Below, one piece after another: positions 8,046 through 57,950 of a stretch of 64,000 bases of DNA. How positions within the stretch are numbered: position 1 is the first letter of the stretch; every line of letters begins with the position of its first letter. Source of the stretch: Pleurocapsa sp. PCC 7327 (GTDB taxonomy: Bacteria; Cyanobacteriota; Cyanobacteriia; Cyanobacteriales; Microcystaceae); contig NC_019689.1 in the NCBI RefSeq assembly GCF_000317025.1, positions 509,501-573,500 on the forward strand, in the 5' to 3' direction. A program made the position numbers and the translations under genes. The notes under the pieces are model-generated. The model saw only the letters and a list, made by a program, of their open reading frames with translations. It did no database searches and was not told the origin of the DNA.

Positions 8046-10520
8046 TCAAATTAAATAGGCGATAGTTACCCCTGCACCGCCTTCATTTTGAAGGGCAAGT
8101 TCAAACCGTTCGACTTGGGGATGATGTTGCAAGAATTCATGAATTCCTTGGCGCAAGCGCCCCGTCCCTTTGCCATGAATAATCCATAGAACTCCCGATT
8201 CGGTGGCTTTAGAAATCGCCCTTTCCAATTCAGATTCTGCCTCTGCTACCCGACTTCCCCGCAGATCGATGGTATTTTGAGAGGTTCTTACCGTAACAGG
8301 CGGTTTCGGCGTAGCAGGTTGAGCGGGTGGGGGGGGGACAGCCCTTGGTTTGGCGGGGATTTCCACTTTTTTCCCATCCAAAGACTCGATTTCTGTTAGG
8401 GGAACAGTCATTTTCATCAGCCCAAAACGAACCGTTACTTCTTCATCTGCAAGATTCAGCACTTCTGCCGTTTGACCTAAATTAGGCAGCCTTATTCTTT
8501 CGCCAACTTTGGGCAAATAATTAGAGGAGTGCTTTTCTGGCTTGGGAAGGCGAGTTTCGGCAATTTGACCGATCGCTTCTGTGGCTTTTTGGGCATTTTG
8601 CGCGGTTGGAGATCCCTGTTGCAGTTGGCGAATGACTTTGGCGATCTCTGCTTTGGCTTGGGCGATCGCTTTTTGGACTTCCCTTTCCTGATACTGTTTC
8701 AACTCGCGCTCTCTTTCTTGCAAAGAAGCGGCTTTTTCGGAAATCTCGGTGTAAAATCGCTCGGTTTGTTGCAGTAGTTGACTGGCTTCTTTGGCTTTGA
8801 GTTCTTGCTCGCGGCGCTGCGCCTCTAATCCGGCAATGGTTTGGTTAATCTCTTCGGAATAGCCGCCGACGCGCTTTCTCGCTTCCTCGACGATCTCTTG
8901 TCCGAGTCCTAATCGTTGCGCGATCGCAAGGGCGTTAGATCGTCCGGGAATTCCCCACAGCAAGCGGTAGGTAGGCGAGAGGGTGCGATCGTCGAATTCA
9001 ACCGAGGCATTTTCAAAGCGAGAGTCTTGATATTTTAGGGCTTTTAGTTCGCCGTAGTGAGTCGTCGCGATGGTCAATAAGGCGTTATCGGCAAGATATT
9101 TGAGAAGCGCGATCGCTAAAGCACTTCCCTCCGCCGGATCGGTTCCCGCACCTACTTCGTCGAGTAGGATTAGGGATTGGTTATTTGTCCTTTGTATCTT
9201 TCCTATCGCTTCACTATCCCACTCTTGTGCTTGTCTGTTATCGTCTGGGTCTTTCTGAACTCTTGAACTACTGAACTCTGCTTTTAATGTATCAATAATG
9301 CGAATGATGCGGCGAATGTGACCGGAAAAGGTAGATAAACTTTGTTCTATTGATTGTTCGTCGCCAATATCGGCTAATACCTGTTCAAACCAGGGTAATT
9401 CGACGGGTTCTCTCGCCGGAATGAATAAACCGACTTTTGCCATCAAGGCAGCTAACCCAAGGGTTTTTAGGGCGACGGTTTTTCCTCCCGTGTTGGGGCC
9501 AGTAATAGCCACGACGCGAATTTTAGGATCGATTTGTACGTTGATGGGAACAACGTCTGCGCCTTGTTCGTGCTGGTGCTGCCAAACTAAGAGAGGATGG
9601 CGTAGCTGCCGCAGGGTAATAGGTTCGCCTTCTTCAAAATCGATAAATCTAGGCGCATTTCCTTCCAGCCATAGGCTATAACGCGCTCTCGCCGTGGCTA
9701 AATCGAGGATAGTGGCAACGGCTAATAGATACTCTAAATCGGATTCAACGGCGGCGACTCGTTCGGTTAACGCTCGCAGGATTGCTTCTTCTTCTGCTTG
9801 TTCTTGACGGCGATATTGCCTGAGTTGGTTTCCTAAGTTAACGATCGCGTTGGGTTCGATATAAAGGGTTGCGCCAGTACTAGATGTATCGTGGATGATA
9901 CCAGGAATCTGGTCTTTTTGAGGGGCTTTGACGGGGATAACAAAGCGATCGCCCCTTTGAGTAATGACGGGTTCTTGAACGGCTCCTCCCTGTCTTTGTA
10001 GGATACTCTGAAGTTTTTGATAGATGCTGTCTCGGACTTCTTTGAGGCGGGCGCGAATGCTTGCTAATTTAGGAGAAGCGCGATCGGCGACTTTTCCCGC
10101 ATCATCGATACAGCGATGGATTTCTTGCTCTATTTCGGGATAGGTGCGAATTTCGGCAACTAATTCGGTTAAAACGGGGATATCTTCTCGATTGTCGATA
10201 ACTCGTCGCAAGCGTCTAACCCCTGCGAGAGTGGTTGCAATGTCGAGCAATTCTTGTCCCGACAGCATGCCGCCGAGTTTGGCTCTCTCCAAGGATTCTC
10301 CAATATCGGCAATCCCGTCAAATGACCACCCAGTTTCTAAATCTTGTTCGAGTTGATAGACTTCTTTAGTTTGTGCCAAAAGCTGCAAGCTTTCCGTTTT
10401 TGTCGTTGGGATTTCCAAATTGCGAGCAGCAACAGCACCTACCTTAGTCGCGGCAAAGGTGGCTAGGTGCTGACAGAGACGATTCCATTCGAGTAATTCT
10501 AAAGTTTCTTGTTGTATCAA
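8046..10520 (-). CDS. mutS2: MutS2 endonuclease/ATPase
   Basis: MutS2 is a cytoplasmic ATPase with an Smr nuclease domain. In other bacteria it limits homologous recombination and, in some, rescues collided ribosomes. The 824 residues show the core clamp and lever helices, a Walker A motif GPNTGGKT (about 339-346), the signature FSGHIRRI, the Walker B ILLDEVGAGTDP, a long coiled coil (about 525-640) and a C-terminal Smr domain with TIDLRGS and IIHGKGTGRLR. Between FSGHIRRI and Walker B lies an extra ~37-residue insert (about 412-448) ending in QRTNNQ. Its DNA matches intergenic spacer repeats and it is absent from usual family members, yet the frame is kept. The start ATG 10520 fits the family N-terminus. 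Confidence 0.95.
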   Translation of the reverse strand: MIQQETLELLEWNRLCQHLATFAATKVGAVAARNLEIPTTKTESLQLLAQTKEVYQLEQDLETGWSFDGIADIGESLERAKLGGMLSGQELLDIATTLAGVRRLRRVIDNREDIPVLTELVAEIRTYPEIEQEIHRCIDDAGKVADRASPKLASIRARLKEVRDSIYQKLQSILQRQGGAVQEPVITQRGDRFVIPVKAPQKDQIPGIIHDTSSTGATLYIEPNAIVNLGNQLRQYRRQEQAEEEAILRALTERVAAVESDLEYLLAVATILDLATARARYSLWLEGNAPRFIDFEEGEPITLRQLRHPLLVWQHQHEQGADVVPINVQIDPKIRVVAITGPNTGGKTVALKTLGLAALMAKVGLFIPAREPVELPWFEQVLADIGDEQSIEQSLSTFSGHIRRIIRIIDTLKAEFSSSRVQKDPDDNRQAQEWDSEAIGKIQRTNNQSLILLDEVGAGTDPAEGSALAIALLKYLADNALLTIATTHYGELKALKYQDSRFENASVEFDDRTLSPTYRLLWGIPGRSNALAIAQRLGLGQEIVEEARKRVGGYSEEINQTIAGLEAQRREQELKAKEASQLLQQTERFYTEISEKAASLQERERELKQYQEREVQKAIAQAKAEIAKVIRQLQQGSPTAQNAQKATEAIGQIAETRLPKPEKHSSNYLPKVGERIRLPNLGQTAEVLNLADEEVTVRFGLMKMTVPLTEIESLDGKKVEIPAKPRAVPPPPAQPATPKPPVTVRTSQNTIDLRGSRVAEAESELERAISKATESGVLWIIHGKGTGRLRQGIHEFLQHHPQVERFELALQNEGGAGVTIAYLI

Positions 10521-10701
10521 GGGTCGTATATTAAAACTGGCTTTGTCTTATCTTTGTCTTATTTTATATTTTATCCGGTTTCGATCCCCACCTGGCAAGC
10601 AATCTACAAAGGAAATCGCGATCGCTCCTATTTATCCTTACTGTAATCGATCTGTCTCCGTTCTCAGCATGTTACTTTAGTCAGATTTTTGGGAGTTTTT
10701 T

Positions 10702-10738
10702 CATTGAGCATCTGTAGCGTTCTTTTTTAGAAATGGTA
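10702..10738. repeat. 37-bp dispersed repeat, copy 1
   Basis: The 37 bases beginning CATTGAGCATCTGTAGCG and ending AGAAATGGTA are found again, as an exact reverse complement, at 51790-51826, about 41 kb away. A 37-base perfect match between spacers of unrelated genes is not expected by chance. It is not coding in either place. Its nature is unknown. Confidence 0.85.
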
Positions 10739-10899
10739 GAATTTGTCATTAGTCGCGCAATAAAATGAAGCGAAGAATCTCAATTTTTCGTTAAGCTCAG
10801 ATTTCGCACCTATGCTTTACCTCACAAGGAAATGAATTCTCTTGCTCGATCGCAAAAATCCTAACCTATAGGAATAAATGATGACTAGATAAGGCTTTC

Positions 10900-10949
10900 A
10901 GTCCATTTTAATGGACTTACGCTGTTAGCCAAGAAATAAATTTCTTGGC
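10900..10949. repeat. Two-hairpin unit with 22-bp palindrome, copy 2
   Basis: An 18-bp palindrome (arms AGTCCATT and AATGGACT around TT, 10900-10917) is followed 10 bases later by a 22-bp palindrome with arms GCCAAGAAAT and ATTTCTTGGC around AA (10928-10949). The second matches the palindromes at 7840, 31312 and 51659. A similar pair of hairpins occurs at 51659-51706. The layout resembles REP/BIME-type units. Confidence 0.8.
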
Positions 10950-11076
10950 AAGATTTTAATGTTTACTGGTTATGGTGCAAGATCTAAGTTAAGGCTGAGA
11001 TGCTTCACTTCGCTGCGCTACGTTGGGCATGACAAAAACTATATTTTCAGACATCTTCTAAGATGACAGGATAGTT

Positions 11077-13596
11077 TCATCGCCCTATAAATTGTTGCTC
11101 CCCAAGCGAGGCTGCGATTAACTCTCTTACACTGGCAGCAGAGTTTAATTTCAAAGCCGCTTGCGCGATCGCCTGTGTTTCGGTTACAGTTATCTGCGCG
11201 ATCGCACCTTTAACCTCTCCAATCTTTTGAGGATTGAGACTGATTTCGTCTATCCCCAATCCTAATAAGATAGGCACTGCTAGGGGATCGGCTGCCAGTT
11301 CACCACATAGTCCCACCCAAATACCAGCTTCGTGGGCAGCTTGTACGGTTTGCTGAATCATTCGCAACACGGCTGGATGCAAGGCATCGGCTAAGGCAGC
11401 CACCTTGGCATTAGTGCGATCGCAAGCCATAACGTATTGACTGAGATCGTTGGTGCCAAGGCTGAAAAAATCCACCTCAGATGCCAAGCGATCCGCGATC
11501 GCAGCAGCCGATGGAACTTCTACCATAATGCCGACTTCCATTGCTTCATCGAAGGGAATATTAGCTCGGCGAAGTTCGGACTGGACTTCAGCCAGAATCG
11601 CTTTAGCTTGCCGGACTTCGGCTACAGTAGAAATCATCGGGAACATTATCTTAATTTTATGTCCGGGACTGGCTCGCAAAATTGCCCGCAACTGAGTTTT
11701 GAAGATATCGGTGCGATCGAGACAGAAACGAATCCCGCGCCAGCCTAAGAAGGGGTTGGTTTCCGGTTGCAAGCCGAGGTAGGAAACTGGCTTGTCGCCG
11801 CCGACATCGAGGGTGCGAATGATGAAGGGACGAGTCTCCATTAATTGCGCGATCGCGTGATAGACGGCTAATTGTTCGTCTTCAGAAGGCGCGATCGTTC
11901 GATCGAGATAAAGAAATTCAGTACGCATCACCCCAACCCCTTCTGCACCCATATTCAGGGCGACTTTAGCATCGGCTATCCCGCTGATATTTGCGAGTAC
12001 GGGAATTTGTTTCCCGTCGCGAGTAATAGCGGGTTGTTGCGCTGTCGCTAGGGCTTTCTGTTTGGCGGCTTGGACGCGATCGCGCTTTGATTGAAGAGTT
12101 GCTATAGTATCTGCATCTGGATCTATCCATACTTTGCCACTTTCGCCATCGAGTGCCAAGCAAGTTTCATCGCGCAATTTCAATACCTCTGGCGTTAAGC
12201 CAACTACTACCGGAATGCCTAATGTTCTTGCCAGAATAGCGCTATGAGAAGTGGCACTGCCACGAGTCATGCAAATGCCCAGCACTTGTTCGGGATCTAA
12301 CTTGGTTACCTCAGAAGGCGTTAAATCTGGGGCAACCAGAATGACTGGATGGGTTAGTTCTAATGCACTCAGATTGCTACCTGTTAGCAATCTCAGCACT
12401 CGCTGTCCCAGATCTGTTACATCGGCAGCACGCGATCGCATGTAAGGATCTTCAAGCTGGCGGTAAGTTGTTACCAACTCCTCGACTGCTGCATGCCAAG
12501 CAGCTTCGGCACTCAGATGTCTTTCAAAAATGTTCTGGCGCACAGTATCTAGCAGTGCCGGATCTTCTAGAAACAATACATGAGCATCGAAAATAGCCGC
12601 TTCTGAGTTGCCAATTTGACTAGCAGTTTGCTGTCTCAGCGTCCGTATTTCCTGCTTGGCAATTTGAAGCGCTGAGAGCAATTGCTGCCATTCAGCCTGA
12701 GGCTCTTCGCTAGGACGTTCGGCTAGTTTGACTGGTGCGGGGCAATAGAGAAAAGCTGGCGCGATCGCGATGCCGGGAGAGGCGGGAATTCCTTGTAGAT
12801 CTGGGGAGAGAGAGGGCGAAGAGGTGAGGGGGAGAGATTCTAAAACGCGATCGCTTTCTCCAAAGTTGTCTTCCACTAAGGCTTGTAGTGCCGCAATCGC
12901 TTCGTCAGCATCGATGCCGCGTGCCGCGATCGCAATTTCGTGTCCTTGCCTTACCCCCAATGTAGCGACTTGGTTAATACTATCGGCACGGACATATTCA
13001 GTCCCTTTGGTGAGATTTCGTACCTCGATTTGTGACTGAAAATGAGCTGCCGTGGTAACGAATTTAGCGGCTGGACGGGCATGTAACCCTAGTTGATTGC
13101 GAATAATCAGGTGAATTTCTTTGGTTTGTCTTTGTCCTTGGTTATTTGTCTTTTGTCCTTTGCTTTCAATGAAAGATAGCTGACTTCCCAATTGAGCGGC
13201 TTTGGCTGTTAAGGCTTCTCTCGCCTCGGCGATGACTCGTTCGATGTTACTGCCCGTTGCTGCGGCGACTGCTGCTGCGAGCGCGCCTTCTACCAAGGGG
13301 GCTTCGCACAGATATACTTTATCTCGTCGTTCATTTGGGAGAAATTCTAGCGCCATTTCTGCACTCATAAGAGCGCTGCCAAGATCCATTAAAACGAGAA
13401 CGCCATCGTCGCTATAAACAGACTCAATGGCTTCCCGAACCTGCATTGCATCGGTGCCTAGTGGGTTTTGGGGATCGTCAATTCCTGCGGCCGTTGCTAA
13501 TTTTACCTTACCTCGAACCATCTGCGTTACCAGTTCGCGCACGCCTTCGGCAAGTTGCCGACTATGAGAGACGATAACAATTGCGATCGCTGCCAT
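11077..13596 (-). CDS. Fused DhaM-HPr-enzyme I phosphotransferase
   Basis: This 839-residue fusion combines three phosphotransferase modules. Residues 1-135 form an EIIA of the DhaM (mannose-type) family with the acceptor histidine in VIVSHSRQL (His11). Residues about 158-245 are HPr with GLHARPAAKF. Residues about 265-830 are enzyme I: the phospho-histidine region GSATSHSAILA (about 450), LDVGGDKP, EVPSAAAI, SLGTNDLSQY and GLCGELA. Phosphate would pass from PEP through enzyme I and HPr to the DhaM domain, which in other bacteria phosphorylates ADP bound to DhaL for dihydroxyacetone kinase. No dhaK or dhaL lies in the window. The DhaM-HPr linker (about 142-160, QKTNNQGQRQTK) is encoded by the same spacer-type repeat found inside mutS2 and crtD. 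Confidence 0.92.
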   Translation of the reverse strand: MAAIAIVIVSHSRQLAEGVRELVTQMVRGKVKLATAAGIDDPQNPLGTDAMQVREAIESVYSDDGVLVLMDLGSALMSAEMALEFLPNERRDKVYLCEAPLVEGALAAAVAAATGSNIERVIAEAREALTAKAAQLGSQLSFIESKGQKTNNQGQRQTKEIHLIIRNQLGLHARPAAKFVTTAAHFQSQIEVRNLTKGTEYVRADSINQVATLGVRQGHEIAIAARGIDADEAIAALQALVEDNFGESDRVLESLPLTSSPSLSPDLQGIPASPGIAIAPAFLYCPAPVKLAERPSEEPQAEWQQLLSALQIAKQEIRTLRQQTASQIGNSEAAIFDAHVLFLEDPALLDTVRQNIFERHLSAEAAWHAAVEELVTTYRQLEDPYMRSRAADVTDLGQRVLRLLTGSNLSALELTHPVILVAPDLTPSEVTKLDPEQVLGICMTRGSATSHSAILARTLGIPVVVGLTPEVLKLRDETCLALDGESGKVWIDPDADTIATLQSKRDRVQAAKQKALATAQQPAITRDGKQIPVLANISGIADAKVALNMGAEGVGVMRTEFLYLDRTIAPSEDEQLAVYHAIAQLMETRPFIIRTLDVGGDKPVSYLGLQPETNPFLGWRGIRFCLDRTDIFKTQLRAILRASPGHKIKIMFPMISTVAEVRQAKAILAEVQSELRRANIPFDEAMEVGIMVEVPSAAAIADRLASEVDFFSLGTNDLSQYVMACDRTNAKVAALADALHPAVLRMIQQTVQAAHEAGIWVGLCGELAADPLAVPILLGLGIDEISLNPQKIGEVKGAIAQITVTETQAIAQAALKLNSAASVRELIAASLGEQQFIGR

Positions 13597-13708
13597 TGAG
13601 AATAAAAATGTTCTGTATAGTTCAATAATAATTTGTTGGCATTCTCGTCGATCGGTTCTAGAAAGTTGCCGTTAAAATTATCCTAAAGTTCTTTTAGGGC
13701 GATCGCTT

Positions 13709-14806
13709 GTGAAATTCGGTCAATGGATTGGTTTTCTTAGCTTACTTGTTTCCCTATACGTTCTCTGGAAAATTCAACAATTGTTGTTGCTAGTGTTTAC
13801 AGCAGTCATTCTTGCGATCGCTCTCAACCGAATTGTTCGTTATTTCCAACGGTTTGGGATTAAACGACACCTTGCGATCGCTGTTACTGTAATTTCCAGT
13901 CTCATCGTTACCGTTCTCATTTTCGTTCTCATCGTACCGCCTTTCCTCGAACAATTCCAAAACTTAATTGCTTTGCTCCCCAGCGTCTGGGAACGAATTC
14001 GCTTTCAAATTGACATTTTTAAACAGCAACAATTGCAATTTGAATGGCTGCCCCCACTTCCCACCCAAGCCGATCTAATCGAACGGTTACATCCTTTAGG
14101 AACAGCCTTGTTTAACAATTTCTTTGCAGTTTTTTCCAATTCTTTAGCTGTCGTTTTACAACTACTTTTGGTCTTCGTTTTAACTTTAATGATGTTGGTC
14201 AGTCCACAAGGATACCGAAAAGCATTTTTAATATTATTTCCCTCTTTTTATCGTCAGCGTGCCGATGAAATTCTCTCGGCATCCGAAGAAGCATTAGGAA
14301 ATTGGTTAATAGGTATTGTCATTACTTCTACCTTTATTGGAACTTTGAGCGGACTGAGCCTATTAGTATTACAAATTAATTTAGTTCTAGTTCATGCCTT
14401 AATAGCTGGTTTACTGAATTTCATTCCTAATATTGGCCCCATGCTCAGCATGATTTTTCCGATTACCATTGCCCTTCTCGATTCTCCTTGGAAAATTGGA
14501 GCGATTGTCGTTGCATATATTATTATTCAGCAGCTTGAAAGTTATTGGCTTACTCCTACTATTATGGCAAAACAGGTATCTGTATTACCTGCGGTAACCT
14601 TGCTCGCTCAAATCTTTTTTGCTCAAGCTTTTGGTTTCTTCGGATTATTTCTTGCCCTGCCTCTAACTGTCGTTGCTAAAATTTTAATTGAAGAAATATT
14701 ATTTAAAGATATTTTAGATAAATGGGAAATTTCTCCAAGTTCTGATTTAATTTTTACTCGCTCTTTTCCTAGTCATGAACCAGAAAATACTTCTATGGAT
14801 CGTTAG
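13709..14806 (+). CDS. AI-2E family transporter (PerM/YdiK-like)
   Basis: This 365-residue inner-membrane protein has the AI-2E transporter family layout: paired N-terminal helices (about 8-42 and 55-80), a soluble middle segment (about 85-140), then five or more helices with GLLNFIPNIGPMLS and SYWLTPTIMAK. Members export small molecules or ions; the substrate here is unknown, and the name does not prove autoinducer transport. The start is GTG 13709, the only in-frame start just before the first helix, and its ribosome-binding site is weak. It begins 112 bases from the divergent phosphotransferase gene. Its last 32 bases overlap the start of the next gene in another frame, which suggests co-transcription. 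Confidence 0.88.
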   Translation: MKFGQWIGFLSLLVSLYVLWKIQQLLLLVFTAVILAIALNRIVRYFQRFGIKRHLAIAVTVISSLIVTVLIFVLIVPPFLEQFQNLIALLPSVWERIRFQIDIFKQQQLQFEWLPPLPTQADLIERLHPLGTALFNNFFAVFSNSLAVVLQLLLVFVLTLMMLVSPQGYRKAFLILFPSFYRQRADEILSASEEALGNWLIGIVITSTFIGTLSGLSLLVLQINLVLVHALIAGLLNFIPNIGPMLSMIFPITIALLDSPWKIGAIVVAYIIIQQLESYWLTPTIMAKQVSVLPAVTLLAQIFFAQAFGFFGLFLALPLTVVAKILIEEILFKDILDKWEISPSSDLIFTRSFPSHEPENTSMDR

Positions 14807-15626
14807 CCTACTCTTTTTTGTTGGTTTGCCGCTAGATATTAAGGCTCAAGAAGAAACTATCCTCCAGGAAATCAAACGAACGGGATTAGTCAAACTCGGA
14901 ATTCGAGCGGGAGCTTTTCCCTTCGGCTATAAAGATGCGGCTAATAATTTTGCAGGGATTTGCATCGATCTATTTAAGACAGTTATAGATGAAATCAAAA
15001 AGGAATTAAAGCGAGATATTTTGGCAATTAAACTTTATGAATCCAATCTAATTAATCGTTTTAATTTGGTTGAAAATAGAATTGTTCATCTCGAATGTGG
15101 GCCTAATACAATCGATCCTCAATTACCCAGAAACGTGCAATTTTCCAATTCTTTTTTTGTTACGGGCACGCAATTGTTAATCAGGGTAGATAATGCTAAT
15201 AAAATCAAGGCTAACAGGGATTTTTCTAATTTGACCATCGGCGTTCTTCGCGGCACGATTACCCAACAACTGCTTGCCCAAAAATATCCATTAGCAAATC
15301 TGCAACAATTTCAAGGAATTACTGGACGGCGGCGAGGCATACAAGCAGTCCAACAGTTGAAAATTGATGCTTTTGCTAGCGATAGTATTCTTTTAATCGG
15401 CGAAGCAACTAGAGAAGGTTTATTTTTAGGGCAAGATTATCTATTGGTGCCTCAAAAACCACTAGATTGCGTCTATTATGGTTTTATTCTCCCTAAAAAC
15501 GACCCTCAATGGCACGATTTAGTCAACTCTGCAATTCAAGCAGCGTCATTGCCCCAAATTTTTAGCAAATGGTTTGGCGAAATTTCTCCTGAAATAAGAG
15601 AGACGGCAGAGTTTTGTAGAAGCTAG
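14775..15626 (+). CDS. Periplasmic solute-binding protein, family 3 (polar amino-acid type)
   Basis: The 283-residue protein begins with a signal peptide (MNQKILLWIVSLLFFVGLPL, cleavage likely near IKAQ-E). It then shows the two-lobed family 3 binding-protein pattern: RTGLVKLGIRAGAFPFGY, GICIDLFKTV, NLTIGVLRGT and a C-terminal lobe with YYGFILPKND. Such proteins capture amino acids or related polar solutes for an ABC importer. No importer permease or ATPase is nearby. Ligand-contact residues cannot be assigned by eye. The gene starts inside the end of the AI-2E-type gene, so the two are probably translationally coupled, an unusual pairing of an exporter-like and an importer-like component. 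Confidence 0.82.
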   Translation: MNQKILLWIVSLLFFVGLPLDIKAQEETILQEIKRTGLVKLGIRAGAFPFGYKDAANNFAGICIDLFKTVIDEIKKELKRDILAIKLYESNLINRFNLVENRIVHLECGPNTIDPQLPRNVQFSNSFFVTGTQLLIRVDNANKIKANRDFSNLTIGVLRGTITQQLLAQKYPLANLQQFQGITGRRRGIQAVQQLKIDAFASDSILLIGEATREGLFLGQDYLLVPQKPLDCVYYGFILPKNDPQWHDLVNSAIQAASLPQIFSKWFGEISPEIRETAEFCRS

Positions 15627-15768
15627 GGGTCTTAAGTTTCCTCATACACCTATGAATTTAGCTAATTATACATAAAAGGATATTATATTTTTAAGTATTG
15701 ATATTTGCTAAAGTTATAGATAGAGTAGTATCAGCGACCTAAAACTACATCTCAGATACTTAATATCT

Positions 15769-16065: not shown

Positions 16066-16146
16066 TTAGCTAGTACATGTCTAACTGTCTTACGAAATTA
16101 GCAATTGGTTAATTTAAATTTTTAATTAATTTCATTTGTCATTGCT

Positions 16147-16404: not shown

Positions 16405-16491
16405 TATAAAAAACTACTTGGTCAGTCCCCTTTGCTGTTTGCGAATCATTGGTTATTGGTTAACTACAAAAAAACAATAACCAATGACCAA

Positions 16492-17998: not shown

Positions 17999-18029
17999 GA
18001 ATTCACACTGAAAGAGTGACTTTCTTAAC

Positions 18030-23799: not shown

Positions 23800-23958
23800 T
23801 TGGATTTTGGATGAAAGGATTGGGGATTGGGGAGTAGTTAGTTGTTAGTAGTTATTAGTTAGTGGTTAATTGTCTCCTCCTCTCAGAAGTCCCCCAGTCT
23901 CCCCTACTTCCAACTTCCGAATTCCGAATTCCGACTTCCCCCAACTCCCCCAATCCCC
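23800..23958. repeat. Low-complexity spacer repeats
   Basis: The stretch is built from short repeated words: GATGAAAGGATTGGGGATTG, TAGTTAGTTG/TAGTTATTAG runs, and repeated CCGAATTCCGA/AACTTCC words near 23910-23935. Similar words occur at 28130-28160 and, coding, inside tamB at 53922-53968. This is the type of spacer DNA that appears to have entered genes elsewhere in the window. Confidence 0.65.
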
Positions 23959-28129: not shown

Positions 28130-28343
28130 GAGATGAAAGGATTTGGGGATTGGTCAGTTGTCTTTGGTCATTGGTCATTGGGGAGTAGTCGTAGGGCGTT
28201 TTTTGCAGGAAGTGTAGGGAAATCTCTCGCGTTTTTAGATAAACCCGTCCATACGGGGGTTAGTAGTATAATTATCTCCCTTGCTCCCAGTCTCCCCATA
28301 CTTTCCGTTCCCCCTTTTACCTGCCTCGATCGCCTTGCGTTTG
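28130..28343. repeat. Spacer repeats between tRNA-Ile2 and the UspA gene
   Basis: The segment 28130-28180 contains GATGAAAGGATTTGGGGATT, which also occurs in the spacer at 23812, and TTGGTCATTGGTCATTGGGG, a word family seen at 16443-16490. A short palindromic stretch CCCGTCCATACGGG lies at about 28245-28258. No coding capacity is evident. Confidence 0.5.
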
Positions 28344-38903: not shown

Positions 38904-38969
38904 GTACGGGCGGGTTTGGTCGGCGGCTATGTAACAAGACGCTCATTTTACAATTCAACCCGCTCCTAC
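38904..38969. repeat. 66-bp inverted-repeat unit between tldD and tldE
   Basis: The left GTACGGGCGGGTTTG (38904-38918) and right CAACCCGCTCCTAC (38956-38969) are imperfect inverted repeats, enclosing about 37 bases. The word pattern GGGCGGGTTT...AACCCGC.CCTAC is a known style of cyanobacterial spacer repeat. It is followed by AACTGATAACTGATTACTGATTACTGA, a short tandem word run. It could form a hairpin that reduces read-through into tldE. Confidence 0.55.
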
Positions 38970-39002
38970 TGATAACTGATAACTGATTACTGATTACTGA
39001 AA

Positions 39003-47588: not shown

Positions 47589-49124
47589 ATGCCAAGTAGC
47601 CAAGGCAGTCATGAACAAACCCGCGTTCTTGTCGTCGGTGCAGGCATCGGCGGACTAACCGCAGGCGCACTGCTTGCCCGTCGAGGCTACAAAGTCACTA
47701 TTTTCGACCAAGCCTTTGTACCGGGGGGATGCGCCTCTACCTTCAAACGTCGCGGCTTTACGTTCGATGTCGGGGCAACTCAGGTAGCTGGATTAGAGCC
47801 AGGAGGCATTCATCATCGGATTTTTGCAGAACTGGGAGTCGAATTGCCTGCCGCTACTACTTGCGATCCCGCTTGTGTCGTATTTTTACCGGGAGAAAAA
47901 GAACCGATTAACGTCTGGCGAGATCCTCAAAAGTGGCATGCCGAAAGACAGCGACAGTTTCCTGGAAGCGAACCTTTCTGGCAGTTAATAGCAAGATTAT
48001 TTCGGGCAAGTTGGAAGTTTCAATCCCGCGATCCTGTTTTGCCGCCTCGCAATCTCTGGGATTTATGGCGGTTGCTCTCGGCAGTGCGACTGGATACCTT
48101 AATTACCGTGCCGTTTACGCTAATGACGGTGGGAGATGCCTTGCGGTTGTACGGGTTGCACAAAGATAAGCGTCTCAAGAAATTTCTCGATTTGCAACTG
48201 AAGCTGTATTCCCAAGTGGATGCCGATGAAACGGCACTCTTGTACGCAGCGACGGCATTGGCAGTTTCTCAGGAACCCCAGGGCTTGTTTCACCTTCAAG
48301 GTAGCATGCAAGTATTAAGCGATCGCCTGGTAGAAGCCCTGGAAAAATACGGCGGTAAATTATTTATGCGCCATAGTGTCGAACAGATTTACACCAAATC
48401 CGGACGGGTTACTGGCGTAAAAGTTCGCCACCTCAAAACCAACCAAGTCTGGACGCAAGAAGCCGATATTATCGTTGCCAACGTCACAGTCCGGAATTTA
48501 GTCCAACTATTACCGATGACTAATGACCAAGGACAAAGGACAAATAACTATAAGCGTCGCGTCGATAAACTCCCAGAAGCTTCGGGAGCATTTGTAGTTT
48601 ATCTAGGAGTAGATCGCAGTGCCATCCCAGAAGGCTGTCCGCCACACTTGCAGTTTCTCTACGACTACAACGGACCTATCGGCGAGAATAATTCGCTGTT
48701 TGTCTCGGTCAGCAAACCGGGGGACGGACGTGCACCAGAAGGAAAAGCGACAATTATTGCCTCGTCTTTTACGGATACCCAGCTCTGGTGGCAGAAAACC
48801 AAAGAAGATTATAAGGCTCTAAAAGAACAATATACCCAAGAAGCGATCGCGCGCTTAGGAGAGTACTTTCATCTGACCCCAGAAACTATCGTGCATCAAG
48901 AAGCTGCCACCCCCAGAACCTTTGCCCGCTTTACGGCGCGAGAGAAAGGGATGGTCGGCGGAGTCGGTCAGCGAATTTCTACCTTTGGTCCTTTTGGTAT
49001 TGCCACTCGCACCCCAATTAAAAACCTCTGGTTAGCAGGCGATTCTACCCACCCAGGAGAAGGAACGGCAGGAGTCAGTTATTCTGCCCTTACAGTCGTA
49101 CAACAAATTGAGGCGAGATCGTAA
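47589..49124 (+). CDS. crtD: Carotenoid C-3',4' desaturase CrtD
   Basis: CrtD introduces a double bond in the monocyclic carotenoid pathway leading to myxol glycosides (myxoxanthophyll) in cyanobacteria. The 511-residue protein shows an N-terminal FAD dinucleotide-binding motif VVGAGIGGLTAGALLARRG (about 16-34) and PGGCASTFKRRGFTFDVGAT. It also shows GLEPGGIHHRIFAELGV, QLKLYSQVDADETALLYAA and a C-terminal LWLAGDSTHPGEGTAGVSY. It fits CrtD better than CrtISO/CrtH. Residues about 311-322 (TNDQGQRTNNYK) are an insertion encoded by a spacer repeat; the family does not usually have it. Membrane association is peripheral. Start ATG 47589 fits relatives. Confidence 0.88.
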   Translation: MPSSQGSHEQTRVLVVGAGIGGLTAGALLARRGYKVTIFDQAFVPGGCASTFKRRGFTFDVGATQVAGLEPGGIHHRIFAELGVELPAATTCDPACVVFLPGEKEPINVWRDPQKWHAERQRQFPGSEPFWQLIARLFRASWKFQSRDPVLPPRNLWDLWRLLSAVRLDTLITVPFTLMTVGDALRLYGLHKDKRLKKFLDLQLKLYSQVDADETALLYAATALAVSQEPQGLFHLQGSMQVLSDRLVEALEKYGGKLFMRHSVEQIYTKSGRVTGVKVRHLKTNQVWTQEADIIVANVTVRNLVQLLPMTNDQGQRTNNYKRRVDKLPEASGAFVVYLGVDRSAIPEGCPPHLQFLYDYNGPIGENNSLFVSVSKPGDGRAPEGKATIIASSFTDTQLWWQKTKEDYKALKEQYTQEAIARLGEYFHLTPETIVHQEAATPRTFARFTAREKGMVGGVGQRISTFGPFGIATRTPIKNLWLAGDSTHPGEGTAGVSYSALTVVQQIEARS

Positions 49125-49561: not shown

Positions 49562-49564
49562 TTT

Positions 49565-50017: not shown

Positions 50018-50178
50018 AGACTGTAAGACTAGATAACGTTTGTTCGTCTTTCAGCTTAGCGCGAATCGTTGATGAAGTTAAGTCGTACCGCTATTCGAGA
50101 TCTTGGCGACGAAACGATCGCCCGCAAGGGGATGGCAATGCCTAACCCATGCTCAAGAATTAGCTTGCCCAAAAAGCT

Positions 50179-50781: not shown

Positions 50782-50820
50782 ACAAGGAAAAAGGTAAAGA
50801 GTAAAAGGCAAAAATCAAAA

Positions 50821-51582
50821 ATGGAATCTCAAACAAGTTCTCAAGATAAAAACTATGAAGTCTGGAAAAACGCCGAACTATCAAAAGCTTTTTTAGAAGG
50901 AGTGCGAGGAGCCATTCCTCTAGCAGCAGAGCAAATCGATATTCTCCTTCGGGTTATTCAATTAACTCAAACTAAGGTAGAAAATTTCTTAGATTTAGGC
51001 TGCGGAAACGGGATTTTAGGTCGGTCGATTTATCAACACTATCCCAAAGCTAAAGGCAGTTTTTTAGATATTTCTGAAAATATGCTACGAGCAGCTAAAA
51101 ATAATCTGAAAATGGAGAGTAACAATTCTGTTTTTATTCTTCAAGATTTTGGTAAAAAAGAATGGCTTAATTCAGTCACTCAAGAAGCTCCTTTTGATGT
51201 TATTGTTTCTGGCTTTGCTATTCATCACTTATCCGATGAGAGAAAGAAAGAACTTTATCAAGAGATTTATCAAATTCTCAAACCGGGTGGAGTATTTCTA
51301 AATTTAGAACATGTTGCTTCTCAATCGAAACTAGGAGAAGAGGGTTTCGATCGCTTATTTGTCGATGCACTTTGTTCTTTTCATCAAAAGCAAGGTTCAC
51401 AGCAGTCTAGAGAAGAAATCGCTCGACAATACTATAATCGCTCCGATAAAACTGCGAATATATTAACCCTTGTAGAAACTCAGTGTCAGTGGCTTAGAGA
51501 AATTGGTTTTGTCGATGTGGATTGTTTTATGAAAGTTTTTGAGATTGCCTTATTTGGAGGATTGCGAGCCAAAAACAGTTAG
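50821..51582 (+). CDS. Class I SAM-dependent methyltransferase
   Basis: This 253-residue methyltransferase has the Rossmann-type SAM-binding motif I FLDLGCGNGILG (about 58-69), an acidic residue ending strand 2 in GSFLDISENMLRAA, motif II-like FDVIVSGFAIHHLSDE and motif III LKPGGVFLNLEH. The substrate is unknown; the shape suits small molecules or lipids rather than DNA or rRNA. It is the second gene after the 50179 hypothetical, sharing a likely transcript. The downstream spacer holds the fourth 22-bp palindrome. Confidence 0.82.
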   Translation: MESQTSSQDKNYEVWKNAELSKAFLEGVRGAIPLAAEQIDILLRVIQLTQTKVENFLDLGCGNGILGRSIYQHYPKAKGSFLDISENMLRAAKNNLKMESNNSVFILQDFGKKEWLNSVTQEAPFDVIVSGFAIHHLSDERKKELYQEIYQILKPGGVFLNLEHVASQSKLGEEGFDRLFVDALCSFHQKQGSQQSREEIARQYYNRSDKTANILTLVETQCQWLREIGFVDVDCFMKVFEIALFGGLRAKNS

Positions 51583-51658
51583 GCTTGTAGCAGATCTATT
51601 TGATTCTAGTAGCCAGATAATCAATTCTCTATCTCAGACTTGTCCCTTTGGCATCAAC

Positions 51659-51706
51659 GCCTAGAACTAAAGTTCTAGGCTCAAAGCTCAACTCGATTAA
51701 AATCGA
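51659..51706. repeat. Two-hairpin unit with 22-bp palindrome, copy 4
   Basis: The palindrome arms are GCCTAGAACT and AGTTCTAGGC around AA (51659-51680), followed by TCGATT and AATCGA around AA (51693-51706). Compared with copies 1-3 the arms differ at several positions but remain fully complementary. It lies downstream of the methyltransferase gene. Confidence 0.8.
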
Positions 51707-51789
51707 CTGAAATTCCTATCGGATCTTTTTTTATAAGACTTTTTTGAATTGCAAATTGTGAACTGACGCACACACTCCGTAAGCCGTAA

Positions 51790-51826
51790 TACCATTTCTA
51801 AAAAAGAACGCTACAGATGCTCAATG
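51790..51826. repeat. 37-bp dispersed repeat, copy 2
   Basis: The reverse complement of 10702-10738, perfect over 37 bases (ends TACCATTTCT and GCTCAATG). It is noncoding, in the spacer upstream of cutA. No third copy was seen in the window. Confidence 0.85.
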
Positions 51827-51954
51827 CGAATTGTTAATTGTTAATTATTAATTGTGAATTGTATAAGATGTTTTGCCTAGCGATCGCGACGCTCAACATA
51901 ACATACTATACTTTTGGGATAACCTGTAATGAAACAAAAGGCTAGTGATAGTTA

Positions 51955-52284
51955 ATGGAGCAAAAGGCTACTGATTACGGAATCGTACTGGTAACGGCTT
52001 CTTCTCAAGCAGAAGGAGAAGCGATCGCATCGGCTTTGGTAGAGTTGAAATTAGCTGCTTGCGTTACCTTGCTGCCAGTGCGATCGATTTACACTTGGCA
52101 GGGCCAGGTTAATTCAGAAGAAGAATGGCAGTTGCTTATTAAAACCAATCTATCTCGGTTTTCAGTGCTAGAGGCAAAAATTAAAGAACTACACTCCTAC
52201 CAAGTGCCAGAAATTATTGCTTTGCCAATTGTAGCGGGTTCTCAGTCTTACTTGAATTGGATTGGCGAGAATGTGCGGTCTTAG
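51955..52284 (+). CDS. cutA: Divalent-cation tolerance protein CutA
   Basis: This 109-residue protein is a trimeric CutA1 family member. It has VTASSQAEGEAIASALVE, LAACVTLLPVRSIYTWQGQV, EEWQLLIKTNLSRFS and KELHSYQVPEIIALPI. CutA1 folds like PII signal proteins and has been linked to tolerance of copper and other divalent ions, but the role in cyanobacteria is unclear. Length is standard. Start ATG 51955 follows a spacer; an upstream AATGAAACAAAAG is not in frame. It is a single rightward gene. Confidence 0.95.
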   Translation: MEQKATDYGIVLVTASSQAEGEAIASALVELKLAACVTLLPVRSIYTWQGQVNSEEEWQLLIKTNLSRFSVLEAKIKELHSYQVPEIIALPIVAGSQSYLNWIGENVRS

Positions 52285-52568
52285 TTAACCGGGATCTTGC
52301 ATCATTCTCAACAACTGTTCTTGTAATTAATTTCCTGTCTGCTCGAAAAAGTCTTCCAAAGAAGACCCAATAGGAATTTCAGTCTATTTAATTAATAGCT
52401 CCCCTAGTGCCGACCTTCAATCAAATCGCCTAAATCAATCAAACTAATTCAAGCAACGAAATGATTGACGTATCTGACGAAACTTAAGCACGAAATTTCA
52501 CTCTTTATAATTGAAAGGCAATGTTGCCGACTGGCTAGTCAGACTGTTACAAAGGGTGGAAAAGGCTT
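52285..52568. other. Intergenic region before the TamB-like gene
   Basis: The ~280-base spacer contains no gene. On the minus strand a short reading GSSLEDFFEQTGN appears, too short and without a start to be a gene. The last 60 bases, containing TTACAAAGGGTGGAAAAGG, provide the ribosome-binding region for the TamB-like gene. Confidence 0.4.
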
Positions 52569-55500
52569 ATGATGACAGACAAATCCGATTCAGACAAGGA
52601 AAATAACGAACCGGAAGTCAAGTTAACTCAAAAGCCAGATCCAAAACTCCCTAAAAGATCGCAATGGAAGCGGCGCTTGTCGGTCTGGGGCGGAAGTCTC
52701 GTCTTGGTCAGTCTCGGTGGCGGACTTGCCTACGGATGGTTTTTTATTCAGCGCCAGCTAGTTCCTCTAGTAGAGGAGGAACTGACAGATTTTCTCAATC
52801 GCCCAGTCAAACTCGGTTCGCTTGAGGGCATTTCGCTATTTGGCGCGCGCTTAGGTGCTAGCGAAATCTTATCGACTCCCACCGATCCCGCTAAAGTTTC
52901 TATTACTGCTGTAGACGTAACCTTCGATCCCTTCCTATTACTTGCCAAAAGAGAATTACAGCTTAACGTTACTGCGATTCAACCCAATATTTATCTAGAA
53001 CAAGGCAAAAAAAGAAATTGGTTGGTAACTCAGTTTGATTCAACCAAAAGAGAGGGTTCGGAAGGCCGATTCAAAGTGAACGTCAAGACTCTGCAACTGC
53101 AAGACGCACAAATCATCTTAGCAGCGCGATCGCCAGCAGGTAAACTACAAAAGCCCGTCAAGATATTAATCGATACGGGAAAAGCAGAGTTTATCGATGC
53201 CGGGAAAATTATCGAGTTTGACTTATCGGGAGAACTCGCCAATGGAGGAGAACTTGAGGTTTCAGGAGTTGGCATTCCAAAAACAGAAGCGATTAACCTA
53301 ATCGTTCGGGGAAATAAGCTGCAAGCGTCTGATGTCGATAATTTGCTCGCCCTTCCTTTCGATATTTCAATGGGAACAATCGGTGCCAACCTAGAAGTCA
53401 AACTTAGACCCAAACAAATTCCTCGCGTCAATGGGGTTGCCAGCCTGCAAGAAGTAACCGCACAGATCTCCGCACTGACCCAACCCTTTACTCGCAGCAA
53501 CGGTCAACTGCGCTTTCAGGGAACCGAGATTCGCCTAGAAAATGTCACTTCTGTTTTTGGATCTATTCCTGGGGTTGCTAATGGGACTATCAACCTGCAA
53601 AAAGGCTATGCGCTGACCGCAAAAACGCAACCTATTCGAATACAACAAGTTATTGAGGCATTAAAGCTGCAAAAACCATCCGTACCAATTTTAGGAGAAA
53701 TTCAAGCCGACATTAGGGTTTCGGGATGGATCGATCGCCCGCAACTGACTCTCGACGTGGTTACAACTAAACAAACTCGCGTCGATCGCGTAGACTTTCG
53801 CCCCGGTAGCCGCGCCAATTTACAACTAATCGACTCTAATCTTTTTATTGACAGATTTCAAGCCGTCCCTACCGTAGGCGGAAAGTTAACGGGGACGGGA
53901 AGGGTTCAGTTTGAAAGTCAGAAGTCGGAAGTCGGAAATCAGAAGGCACAGGGGAAGGGACAGGATTCCAAATACATTTTCGACCTTCAGGCGACTAACG
54001 TTCCAGCCCAAGCGATCGCTCGCCTCTATCAAACCCATTTACCTGTCAATCCCGGACTGGTTTCCGGTCAAGCACGGTTTTTAGGAACGCTAGAAAATCC
54101 AGAAAAGCTGCAAGCAACTGGTTTGGCTAATTTCCGATTGGGTGGCGGAAGCGTCAGCGCCAGGAATTTTCAATTTGCCAACCGACGCTGGCAAGGAAAC
54201 GTGCAAACTTTTGGCGTTAGTTTAGCGAGTTTGAATCCAGCTTTGCCGCCTCAACTCCATCAAGGGCGTTTAACTGGTGCGTTCGCCGTTGCTGGAATGC
54301 TCGATTCTTTTCGACCAGAGACTATTCGCGCCACGGGATCGGCTAGCATTGCGATCGCGCAAGGGGTAGCAACCGCAAACGAGCTAACCCTGGCAAATGG
54401 ACGCTGGACAAGCGATCTAAAAGCGCAAGGCATCCAAGTTACCGAACTTTTTCCGAACGTTCCTTCAGAATTTGCAGGGATCCTCAATGGAACTTTTAAC
54501 CTAGCAGGAAGGGTAGAGGATTTACTGAAAACTGTTCGAGGAAATGGAACGGCGAATCTAGCCCTATCGAAAGGCGCGATCGCGGCAGAGAATTTACAAC
54601 TAGCTGATGGCAAATTCAAGGCAGCAGTCATTCCCGATGGAGTTGCGTTAAAACAGTTCTCCAAGGACGGACGGGGAACTTTAGCAGGAAAATTGCAGGT
54701 TCTTGGCCCTATAGAAAATCCCACTCTTAAAGACATTCAAGCCAGTGGGGAATTGAAATTTAGCCACGGCATCGGCGCGATCGCGCAACCGTTGACGACA
54801 GCTATAAGCTGGAACGGTCGGCGATTGGACATTCAACAAGCCACGGCTAAGGGAATTCAGGCTAGCGGATGGGCAGACATTGCTACCGAGCGACTGGGAA
54901 CTCCTAGTGCGATCGAACGATTCGAGTTACAAGTAGCTGCTAATAGAGCCGATCTGAAGGCTTTTTCTCTCTTTGTGCCAGCCAGTTTGGCTAGGTTCGA
55001 TTATTCGGGCAGCTTGGATTTTAAGGGCACGATCGCGGGAACGCTGCGATCGCCCAAGATTAATGGAAATTTAGCAATCGGTAATCTGCAAGTTGCAGGG
55101 CTTGAATTCGATCGCTCTCTTAAAGGAACGGTCAAAGAACTGCCAGAAAAGGGAATAGAGCTTGCGCTAGCAGGCAGAGAAGACGAAATTCAACTAGCAC
55201 TCGACCCTAAATACCAGCCCGTCTCTTTCGATCTGACGTTAGATCGGATGAGCGTTAGGGGCACTCGGAAAAACGAATGGCTTCAGATAGAGGCAGATAA
55301 TGTACGAGTTGGCTTATTCAAAAACATAGCCACAACCTCCCAATTCGCTTTACCCGAAACCTTGCTCGCCCAACCGCTGTCAGGAGAACTATCGGGCGAC
55401 TTTGCCTTCAATCTCAACACCTCAGAACTATCTGGAGAGCAAGTGAAAATTGCCAATCCTCGTTTTGGCAGTCTCAGCGGCGATCGCTTAACCGCCAACT

Positions 55501-57950
55501 TCCGCTATTTAGATGGCAATTTTATCCTCCAAAATGCTCGATTACAAAAAAATGACAGTCAATATCTCCTCAACGGCAGTCTGACGAACGCGCAACGAGG
55601 TTCGCAATGGCAAGCCGAAGTTGCCGTTTCTGGCGGAAAAATCCAAGACGTTCTCGAAACCCTACAAATCTTTGAATTATCGGACTTAACGCGCGGACTC
55701 AAAGCCCCCGATTACGATAAAGCAGCCGATCTTTATGAAGTCGGAAGTCGGCGCTGCTCGGACGCTACCGCTACGTGCGCGGCGGAGTCGGAAGTGAAGT
55801 TCCAAGGCAGGAGTCAGAATACAGAAATCCAGAAATCTCCAGTCCCCAATCATCCCCTTTTCTCCGTCGGCACGCCAGAAACCTCTATACTAAACCAACT
55901 GAGCCATATCTCAGAAATTGAAACGCTCTTAAGAAGACAGCGCAAACAACGCCAAGAAGCTTCTCCTTTGCCAGAATTGGCAGAATTAAAAGGTACTTTT
56001 GATGGCAATCTCGTCGTCAGCAATGCTCCCAATAGCGGTTTAAAAGCCTCTTTTGACTTTCAAGGGAAGGGGTGGCAGTGGCGAGATTTTGCCTTTAGCC
56101 AGATCGATCTCAAAGGCGGCTTTCATAATGGGATCGTCTCGCTGGCACCCTTGAAAATTCAATCGGGAGAAAGTCTATTTGCTTTCTCTGGCAGCATAGG
56201 AGGCAAGATTCCCTCCGGTCAACTACAACTGGCAAACGTGCCCATCCAACTGCTCTCAGAATTTGTCGATTTGCCGCCAACCGTTACGTTTGGGGGGCTG
56301 CTCAACGGAGATGTGAAGCTCGGAGGCAGTCGAGATAATCCGCAAGCAACGGGAGAATTGGCGATCGCCAAGGCAACCATCAATAAAACTGCGCTTTCTA
56401 CCACCCAAGGCAGTTTTACCTACGACAACGGTCGCCTGAATTTTCAAGCCAGCAGTAAACTAAATCACCAAGCTCAGCCAATAATTCTACAAGGCTCTAT
56501 TCCCTATCAAATGCCTTTTTCCACCGTCAAACTAGACAGCGATCGCCTGCAACTAAATCTGCAAGTGAAAAACGAAGGAATGGCACTGTTGGATATTCTC
56601 AGCAAAGATGCCCTCTCCTGGATTGATGGCGAGGGAGAGATAGCGCTGGATATTTCTGGTCGATTCGATCGCCAACTTGGTCGTCCCAGTCAGTTACGAG
56701 CAGAAGGAATCGCTACGTTTAACAATGCGACGATAGGCGCTCAAGTTATTCCCGAAGAGCCTTTAACTGAAGTTAACGGTAAAATTCTTTTCAATTTTGA
56801 CCGCCTTGAGGTAGAAAGTCTCAAAGGAAAATTTGGCGGCGGTGAAGTCGCGGTAGCTGGCACTTTACCCCTCGTCGAATCTACGCCCCAGCTAAATCCT
56901 CTAACAGTGACTCTAGATAACCTCGCTCTTAACCTCAAAGGACTCTATCGAGGCGGCGTGCGAGGGGAAGTCGCGATTGCGGGGAGCGTCCTAGAACCGG
57001 AGATTGGTGGCAAACTGAGATTATTTGACGGTCAAGTTCTTTTGGGAGAAGAAAACGCTACGGAAAACGGCGGCAAGGGAAATGGCGGCGATAACGGTGA
57101 ATTTGGCTTTAAATCAATGGAATTCGATCGTCTGCAACTCACCTTAGCCGACAATATCCAAATCGTGCGACCTCCCGTTTTAAATTTCTTGGCATCGGGG
57201 AGTTTGACCTTAAATGGCAACCTTTCTCAACCCCGCCCGCAAGGTAAAATTACGCTCAAAAGTGGTCAAGTCAACCTCTTCGCTTCCCAGTTCCGTTTGG
57301 ATAAAGGAGCGGACAACAGCGCTCAGTTTTCTCCCAAGAGGGGGCTAGACCCCTATTTGAACGTTCAGCTATTGACTTCAGCAACCGAGACAACCCGCGA
57401 CCCAGTACTGACCAATCCTTCCTCGACTGAAATTATCGATCCGTTTACGGCTAGCTTAGATAGTTTGCAAACCGTTCGCATTCGAGCCAGGATACAAGGG
57501 TATGCCAGTCAACTGACCAATAGCCTCGAACTTACCAGCACTCCTCCTCGCACTCAGCGAGAGATTATCGCGCTTTTAGGCGGAGGTTTTGTCAATACTC
57601 TCGGTCGCGGCGATACCACCCTGGGTTTGACTAATTTAGCTGGGTCAGCCGTCTCTGGAACGATACAAAACGCGATGAGCGATCGCTTGGGTCTTAGCGA
57701 GTTTCGCATCTTCTCAACGCCTTTAATTGACGAACAAGAGCGAATCTCCAGAAATCAAATCGGGATAGCGGCTGAAGCCGGAATCGATCTCACAAAAGAT
57801 GTTTCTTTCTCCGCCATGAAAATTTTGAATACTGACCGACTGCCTCAGTTTGGGCTTCAATACCGCATCAATGGCAATACCGTAATCCGAGGCTCTACTA
57901 ATTTCTCGGATGATAGCAGGGCTATTATCGAATACGAACAACGATTCTAA
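52569..57950 (+). CDS. TamB-like translocation/assembly protein (DUF490)
   Basis: A 1793-residue inner-membrane-anchored protein with one N-terminal helix (SVWGGSLVLVSLGGGLAYG, about 40-60). A very long repetitive beta-rich region follows, with many short AsmA/TamB-type strands (GNGTANLALSKGAIAAENLQ, ADGKFKAAVIPDGVALKQF). The C-terminal DUF490 domain (about 1440-1790) has IRARIQGYASQLTNSLELTS, REIIALLGGGFVN, LSEFRIFSTPLIDEQ and ends YEQRF. Such proteins form a bridge across the periplasm and are implicated in outer-membrane protein insertion and lipid transport. Two stretches look like insertions of spacer DNA in frame: residues about 452-467 (ESQKSEVGNQKAQGKG) and about 1057-1097, near SRRCSDATATCAAESEV. 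Confidence 0.9.
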   Translation: MMTDKSDSDKENNEPEVKLTQKPDPKLPKRSQWKRRLSVWGGSLVLVSLGGGLAYGWFFIQRQLVPLVEEELTDFLNRPVKLGSLEGISLFGARLGASEILSTPTDPAKVSITAVDVTFDPFLLLAKRELQLNVTAIQPNIYLEQGKKRNWLVTQFDSTKREGSEGRFKVNVKTLQLQDAQIILAARSPAGKLQKPVKILIDTGKAEFIDAGKIIEFDLSGELANGGELEVSGVGIPKTEAINLIVRGNKLQASDVDNLLALPFDISMGTIGANLEVKLRPKQIPRVNGVASLQEVTAQISALTQPFTRSNGQLRFQGTEIRLENVTSVFGSIPGVANGTINLQKGYALTAKTQPIRIQQVIEALKLQKPSVPILGEIQADIRVSGWIDRPQLTLDVVTTKQTRVDRVDFRPGSRANLQLIDSNLFIDRFQAVPTVGGKLTGTGRVQFESQKSEVGNQKAQGKGQDSKYIFDLQATNVPAQAIARLYQTHLPVNPGLVSGQARFLGTLENPEKLQATGLANFRLGGGSVSARNFQFANRRWQGNVQTFGVSLASLNPALPPQLHQGRLTGAFAVAGMLDSFRPETIRATGSASIAIAQGVATANELTLANGRWTSDLKAQGIQVTELFPNVPSEFAGILNGTFNLAGRVEDLLKTVRGNGTANLALSKGAIAAENLQLADGKFKAAVIPDGVALKQFSKDGRGTLAGKLQVLGPIENPTLKDIQASGELKFSHGIGAIAQPLTTAISWNGRRLDIQQATAKGIQASGWADIATERLGTPSAIERFELQVAANRADLKAFSLFVPASLARFDYSGSLDFKGTIAGTLRSPKINGNLAIGNLQVAGLEFDRSLKGTVKELPEKGIELALAGREDEIQLALDPKYQPVSFDLTLDRMSVRGTRKNEWLQIEADNVRVGLFKNIATTSQFALPETLLAQPLSGELSGDFAFNLNTSELSGEQVKIANPRFGSLSGDRLTANFRYLDGNFILQNARLQKNDSQYLLNGSLTNAQRGSQWQAEVAVSGGKIQDVLETLQIFELSDLTRGLKAPDYDKAADLYEVGSRRCSDATATCAAESEVKFQGRSQNTEIQKSPVPNHPLFSVGTPETSILNQLSHISEIETLLRRQRKQRQEASPLPELAELKGTFDGNLVVSNAPNSGLKASFDFQGKGWQWRDFAFSQIDLKGGFHNGIVSLAPLKIQSGESLFAFSGSIGGKIPSGQLQLANVPIQLLSEFVDLPPTVTFGGLLNGDVKLGGSRDNPQATGELAIAKATINKTALSTTQGSFTYDNGRLNFQASSKLNHQAQPIILQGSIPYQMPFSTVKLDSDRLQLNLQVKNEGMALLDILSKDALSWIDGEGEIALDISGRFDRQLGRPSQLRAEGIATFNNATIGAQVIPEEPLTEVNGKILFNFDRLEVESLKGKFGGGEVAVAGTLPLVESTPQLNPLTVTLDNLALNLKGLYRGGVRGEVAIAGSVLEPEIGGKLRLFDGQVLLGEENATENGGKGNGGDNGEFGFKSMEFDRLQLTLADNIQIVRPPVLNFLASGSLTLNGNLSQPRPQGKITLKSGQVNLFASQFRLDKGADNSAQFSPKRGLDPYLNVQLLTSATETTRDPVLTNPSSTEIIDPFTASLDSLQTVRIRARIQGYASQLTNSLELTSTPPRTQREIIALLGGGFVNTLGRGDTTLGLTNLAGSAVSGTIQNAMSDRLGLSEFRIFSTPLIDEQERISRNQIGIAAEAGIDLTKDVSFSAMKILNTDRLPQFGLQYRINGNTVIRGSTNFSDDSRAIIEYEQRF

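Follow-up and report, generated by a model that had tools for sequence, protein, structure and literature searches.

The 64,000-nucleotide stretch of DNA analysed here (the window; C1:509501-573500 of the 4,986,817-base, single-contig cyanobacterial genome G000) raises the question of how short repeat words of the kind found in cyanobacterial spacers come to be read as protein inside four conserved genes. Re-reading of the sequence confirmed that such words lie in frame, at the places given by the initial annotation, in genes for MutS2, a DhaM-HPr fusion, a CrtD-like protein and TamB, with all four open reading frames (ORFs) remaining open across them. The inserts are probably translated tandem heptamers of a kind common in cyanobacterial spacers (which we take to be of STRR type), with gene copies surviving in disordered, stop-free and frame-keeping loops and with one loop of MutS2 having been colonised repeatedly.

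Heptamer words in four genes of the window

The MutS2 gene (8046-10520, minus strand) was recognised by its translation and by Pfam matches to MutS_V, MSSS and Smr, representing MutS domain V, an SH3-like domain and the Smr domain. The insert preceding its Walker B strand (residues 413-446; 9183-9284, minus strand) was delimited by orthologue alignment, by comparison with the sister genome G002 and by model confidence (pLDDT). Only about 20 nt of this segment, at the end nearest Walker B, consist of the GACAAAG heptamer (GACAAAK-type words at about 9179-9196, minus strand). With two to three heptamer units and a mostly non-heptameric insert, the MutS2 site of G000 does not register as a period-7 array, which weighs against the heptamer reading; a tandem 7-nt unit was found at the DhaM, CrtD-like and TamB sites. 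A search of 39 genomes, G000 included, provided 30 aligned MutS2 loci, in an alignment without the matched relatives G006, G016, G023, G028 and G032, and across these loci the stretch separating helix and Walker B strand is nearly absent in some and dozens of residues long in others. The MutS2 protein of sister G002 is 96% identical and bears the same insert, and two genomes of the same genus, G001 and G003, hold other sequences at the site. In an AlphaFold2 model (28 sequences) the insert connects helix 391-421 to strand 449-453; pLDDT falls below 50 at residues 430-443, and a second weak stretch lies at 722-742. The best-aligned solved MutS2 chains, 7qv3 and 8qpp, lack the segment.

The second gene encodes a fusion of EIIA-man, HPr and enzyme I (DhaM-like by Pfam; 11077-13596, minus strand). 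Residues 145-158 of the linker between EIIA and HPr are encoded by GACAAAK-type words (13123-13164, minus strand) amounting to about 5.6 copies of period 7, and Tandem Repeats Finder (TRF) reports an array at 13125-13162. The fusion is a patchy gene, matched at E values of 1e-60 or below in 7 of the 39 genomes, G000 included; within these seven, linker sequence varies and linker length is similar, that of G002 being 6 nt shorter than that of G000. Words of the same GACAAAK type form a loop (residues 309-320; 48513-48548, plus strand), delimited by orthologue and sister comparison, in an FAD oxidoreductase (Pfam Amino_oxidase; 47589-49124, plus strand) that we presume to be CrtD/CrtH-like. Matches to this protein were found in 37 of the 39 genomes; the loop is variable among the 30 aligned loci, and in the 95% identical G002 protein it is unrelated and longer. 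Orthologue alignment did not bear out a lengthening of the protein by either the DhaM or the CrtD-like segment.

TamB (Pfam TamB; 52569-57950, plus strand) carries AGTCGG-type words at 53915-53944 and again onward from 55739. The first site consists of three AAGTCGG-type heptamers (53918-53938, plus strand; TRF array at 53915-53945, which with the DhaM array makes period-7 TRF arrays in two of the four genes). These are absent from G002, and the comparison, which covers four relatives, shows that G000 exceeds its sister by exactly 21 nt, that is, three heptamers or seven residues, a step that is a sample of one. At the second site (55737-55860, plus strand), AAGTCGG words flank a GC-rich palindrome. 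Among the relatives compared, the palindrome of G002 contains an additional 18 nt, G001 has AAGGCAG words and G015 has GGCAACA words. The palindrome itself spans 55754-55790, and that of G002 holds a further hairpin nested inside it.

The initial annotation had described the words as encoding extra segments in all four proteins. For MutS2 and TamB the description fits. Where the CrtD-like protein and the linker of DhaM-HPr are concerned, the repeat DNA fills sequence that varies among the aligned relatives in any case. Its view that the repeats occupy sites tolerant of variation agrees with the alignments, in which orthologues differ at these sites and the segments are specific to G000 or to G000 and G002. 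The kinship it saw between the TamB words and the others did not survive, AAGTCGG being a separate heptamer family with its own spacer array at 23906-23939 (ACTTCCG, the reverse of CGGAAGT; TRF). Elsewhere in the window, spacers contain a fold-back of TTGGTTA/TTGGTCA heptamers, evident in the sequence (16443-16490), and TRF arrays of ATTGGTC (28149-28181) and of further period-7 units (23833-23868, 38968-39000 and 51829-51862).

Period-7 arrays inside and outside genes

The exact 16-mer singled out at the outset occurs only twice in the genome, so the feature is a heptamer family, and as a family it is real. Allowing at most one mismatch, GACAAAGGACAAA matches the genome 162 times and its reversed pattern 15 times; for AGTCGGAAGTCGG the counts are 61 and 10. 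Period-7 arrays were then counted in a 464-kb sample comprising the window and 400 kb around it. A strict period scan yielded few arrays (for period 7, two in ORFs and eight outside, with 0.0 in shuffles) and was followed by a less stringent one that included shuffled controls. This second scan detected 15 period-7 arrays in ORFs of at least 150 aa and 45 outside ORFs, where codon-shuffled ORFs gave 1.8 and triplet-shuffled sequence outside them 0.2. Among the 15 is one masked run of N, by which the coding count of every period is inflated by one; when N was ignored, the same 464 kb gave 13 arrays inside ORFs and 47 outside, a dispersed distribution lying mainly in spacers. Other non-triplet periods in ORFs were near the shuffle level, and outside ORFs period 14, a multiple of 7, ranked second with 20 arrays. 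A lack of excess over random expectation in ORFs, which on the terms of the initial annotation would have told against it, was not observed, and the words belong to a DNA-level class of 7-nt repeats located mostly, but not wholly, outside genes.

Comparable counts were obtained beyond this genome. Five relatives (about 400 kb) contained 10 period-7 arrays in ORFs of at least 200 aa, versus 0 in shuffled sequence, and 48 outside; for sister G002 the figures were 4 versus 0, and 31 outside. Seventeen named cyanobacterial loci had 5 in ORFs, versus 1 shuffled, and 24 outside, and 51 loci of other bacteria had 1 versus 0, and 5 outside. The 17 named loci had been chosen for MutS2, and all five of their ORF period-7 arrays lie in MutS2; in these loci ORF arrays of period 8 (eight) and period 9 (six) outnumber those of period 7.

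That the inserts are chance matches or assembly errors might be argued from the rarity of the exact 16-mer and from GACAAAG matches in some ORFs that look like what we take to be ordinary protein motifs (FTDKGQ in L232, PDKGQSD in L238). Set against the genome-wide counts of matching and reversed patterns, and against the recurrence of the MutS2 segment in the separately assembled G002, this explanation is scarcely credible.

The arrays inside and outside ORFs also differ with respect to stop codons. The modal unit is stopped on both strands in 15 of the 47 arrays outside ORFs and in none of the 13 inside, as expected if both sets draw on one pool filtered by stops; in two of the 13, the modal unit would bear an in-sense stop were the array perfect. 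Because 21 nt, the length of three heptamers, equals seven codons, an array free of stops would be read as a seven-residue repeat and could change by 21 nt with the frame intact. Arrays may arise within genes and spacers alike, or be copied into either, by slippage on a short seed or by copying or insertion of spacer DNA. Selection would then purge most of them from genes, and the survivors would be those in disordered loops or linkers, presumably of low function, on a strand without stops and with a total length that preserves the frame. The loop before Walker B in MutS2 would be tolerant enough to be colonised repeatedly by different heptamers. Sister-genome differences were also considered as repeat events in general and rejected as such, with only three of the 69 indels placed in ORFs (154 kb) being both 5 nt or longer and no more than 12 nt away from such an array; indels at heptamers were too few for a comparison of 7-nt with 21-nt steps.

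Recurrent arrays in the MutS2 loop

The distribution of arrays in the pre-Walker B loop was examined across a broad set of MutS2 sequences. The loci of the relatives were joined by 80 MutS2 loci from a scan of named genomes, including 29 from cyanobacteria; a draw across the phylum supplied 244 genomes, 225 with a MutS2 match, MutS2 being found in nearly all cyanobacteria searched. From this draw we took the automatic loci together with 74 more photosynthetic and 6 other genomes. Seven duplicates were excluded, as were thirteen loci lacking a recognisable loop or a long open frame; of the thirteen, six were cyanobacterial, two non-photosynthetic and five other. The final set comprised 150 distinct sequences from cyanobacteria and 50 from elsewhere, the latter being 46 of other phyla and 4 of non-photosynthetic relatives.

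Period-7 arrays occupy the loop in 26 of the 150 cyanobacterial sequences versus none of the 50 others, and codon-shuffled loops yield 0.00. Loop length, set by one pattern that includes eight helix residues, has a median of 23 (range 14-96) in cyanobacteria and of 14 (range 14-45) in the others. The units differ between lineages, with CCCCAAT, CCCCAGT, CCCAATT, GGCAACA, CTCAGCA, TCCTGCC, GGGAATC, AGGGAAC, ATTACCC and AGGAGTC among them. Long arrays are carried by a Symploca contig (L154), with 101 nt of TTCCCAA-type repeats in about 14 nearly perfect units that read SQFPIPN, and L010, with about eight nearly perfect CCCCAAT units. Other periods were also detected in cyanobacterial loops, namely 14 (23 loops), 9 (13), 8 (9), 16 (8), 6 (3), 12 and 15 (2 each) and 4 (1); periods 9, 8 and 6 here, with 8 and 9 in the named loci, indicate that 7 is not the sole unit. 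The rest of the 150 MutS2 frames (354 kb) contains only seven period-7 arrays. Four of these lie in the linker preceding Smr, in three genomes (L010, L338 and twice in L342), and three at the 5' end of the ORF, one of which (L138) is clearly upstream of the conserved MutS2 start.

Prolines, glutamines and charged residues are frequent in these loops, as they are in many linkers, and periods of 6 and 9 nt are present too. Both observations would suit loops that are low-complexity linkers under selection for their residues, with the DNA repeat as a by-product of codon choice. Selection acting only on residues would not produce a period of seven nucleotides, which is not a whole number of codons; codon-shuffled loops yield no period-7 arrays, and the same heptamer families are found outside ORFs. 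We therefore regard this explanation as very improbable.

On a tree of the 150 cyanobacterial MutS2 proteins, built with the loop left out, the period-7 label requires at least 16 changes, versus a mean of 24.5 and a minimum of 20 in 300 shuffles. The arrays are thus partly inherited, yet have been gained or lost many times. In accordance with the proposal that the inserts are lineage-specific, the same segments were not found in distant cyanobacteria, where different heptamers occupy the same MutS2 site. The notion that the heptamer in the loop is the main family of its own genome was unsupported in a small sample of about 80 kb each (one own versus five other places). In G015, the AACAGGC unit of the MutS2 loop was also found in two of four other loci of that genome and in 0 of 133 loci of other genomes.

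The long, nearly perfect arrays of L154 and L010 allow a further reading, in which mutS2 is a contingency gene driven by slippage. Adding or losing one or two units would shift the frame and turn MutS2 off, and a change of three units (21 nt) would only resize the loop. We consider this quite unlikely; were it true, a mismatch-repair-family gene carrying an unstable repeat would have a part in setting how much its own genome recombines or how unstable its repeats are.

Palindromic inserts, known repeat systems and wider meaning

Inserts of palindromic character were also encountered. The clearest lies outside the window in an AcrB-family transporter gene (L112:1786-4593, equivalent to G000:C1:635286-638093), where a 48-nt palindromic in-frame insert encoding 16 residues is absent from every one of the 18 further orthologues aligned across the site, and likewise from the DNA of G002. 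This insert has six genome copies at up to three mismatches, itself included, versus none for the reversed pattern. The same gene has CCAAAAT heptamers in another variable segment, and one 7-nt difference between G000 and G002, not a multiple of three and a point against the heptamer reading, lies in this gene, whose frame in G002 is split in two, with an assembly N there. A GH38 alpha-mannosidase-type gene (L101:11627-14749, equivalent to G000:C1:361127-364249) has a variable loop built from heptamers of either orientation, which form a fold-back kept in frame, and the MutS2 loop insert of L354 is likewise a fold-back of heptamers. These fold-backs resemble the spacer at 16443-16490 and would fit the copying of whole spacer pieces. 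Heptamer words in both orientations were also seen in a histidine-kinase-like ORF of L243, at about residues 480-510, just before a conserved ATPase motif. Among the MutS2 loops tested for inverted repeats, 15 of 75 beat all 30 of their codon shuffles (means 7.1 versus 5.7). In L371, L357, L362, L363 and L016 the loop is filled by long palindromes, not heptamers, that of L016 being GTAGGGGCGAATGGCCATTCGCCC-like.

The copy number and orthologue distribution of the AcrB-family insert, the strong inverted repeats in MutS2 loops and the two orientations in the GH38 gene are what one would look for if the inserts were mobile palindromic elements jumping in frame into genes, in the manner of the Rickettsia palindromic elements (RPEs) or the small dispersed repeats of Nostoc. 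In the four window genes, however, the words are tandem heptamers, and the sister difference at the first TamB site is three tandem units. The TamB palindrome, considered as a multi-copy element, was rejected as such because it is single-copy in the genome at up to three mismatches, and target duplication was not demonstrated. Mobile palindromes are accordingly an unlikely source of the inserts, and translated tandem heptamers remain the reading that we prefer. The small dispersed repeats of Nostoc, which Elhai is said to have described in 2008, are reportedly small and palindromic; by that description, they may be comparable to the insert of the AcrB-family gene and to some hairpins of MutS2.

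RPEs are portrayed as palindromes some 150 bp long that contain a conserved peptide ORF (PMC10969869). Like them, the repeat DNA described here stays open in frame within unrelated genes, namely the four of the window and the GH38 and AcrB-family genes. Unlike the RPEs of that account, the four window genes carry short tandem heptamers, and the variable segments are about 36-125 nt long and encode different peptides. The resemblance to Rickettsia elements initially suggested for the four proteins is therefore unsupported, and it is the palindromic insert of the AcrB-family gene that resembles an RPE.

The closer parallels are with tandem heptamers. According to PMC4692102, such heptamers occur in cyanobacteria and Xanthomonas, the Nostoc PCC 7120 heptamer is GGGGA(C/T)T, and 68% of the Nostoc ones are intergenic, which leaves about a third within genes. 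Our arrays resemble those STRRs, as far as described there, in being tandem 7-nt units, dispersed and mainly intergenic; they differ in that one MutS2 loop takes many different units across the phylum, the portions of that paper available containing no analysis of proteins or loops. The TAACTGA repeats of Beggiatoaceae and cyanobacteria, located mainly upstream of start codons in the passages available (PMC4679880), are likewise heptamers with few copies within ORFs, some of them outside conserved regions; a recurrent protein site is present here and absent from those passages. Among the best literature matches, in a search that took in the subscription literature in part, there was no report of heptamers in the MutS2 loop or of a recurrent protein site. 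Cyanobacterial heptamers, including those in genes, are thus already known, and the recurrent MutS2 site is new as far as searched.

A repeat with a unit length not divisible by three would be expected to be kept from genes, yet the 7-nt class described here appears, from its sequence, to become protein repeatedly. A single MutS2 loop that records many separate events would offer a natural series on how repeats enter genes and what a site tolerates, and this series may bear on the birth of disordered peptides with seven-residue repeats, such as (SQFPIPN)n. Whether mutS2 can be switched by its arrays becomes testable. For annotation, the series is a warning that loops of this kind represent repeat DNA and not conserved domains.
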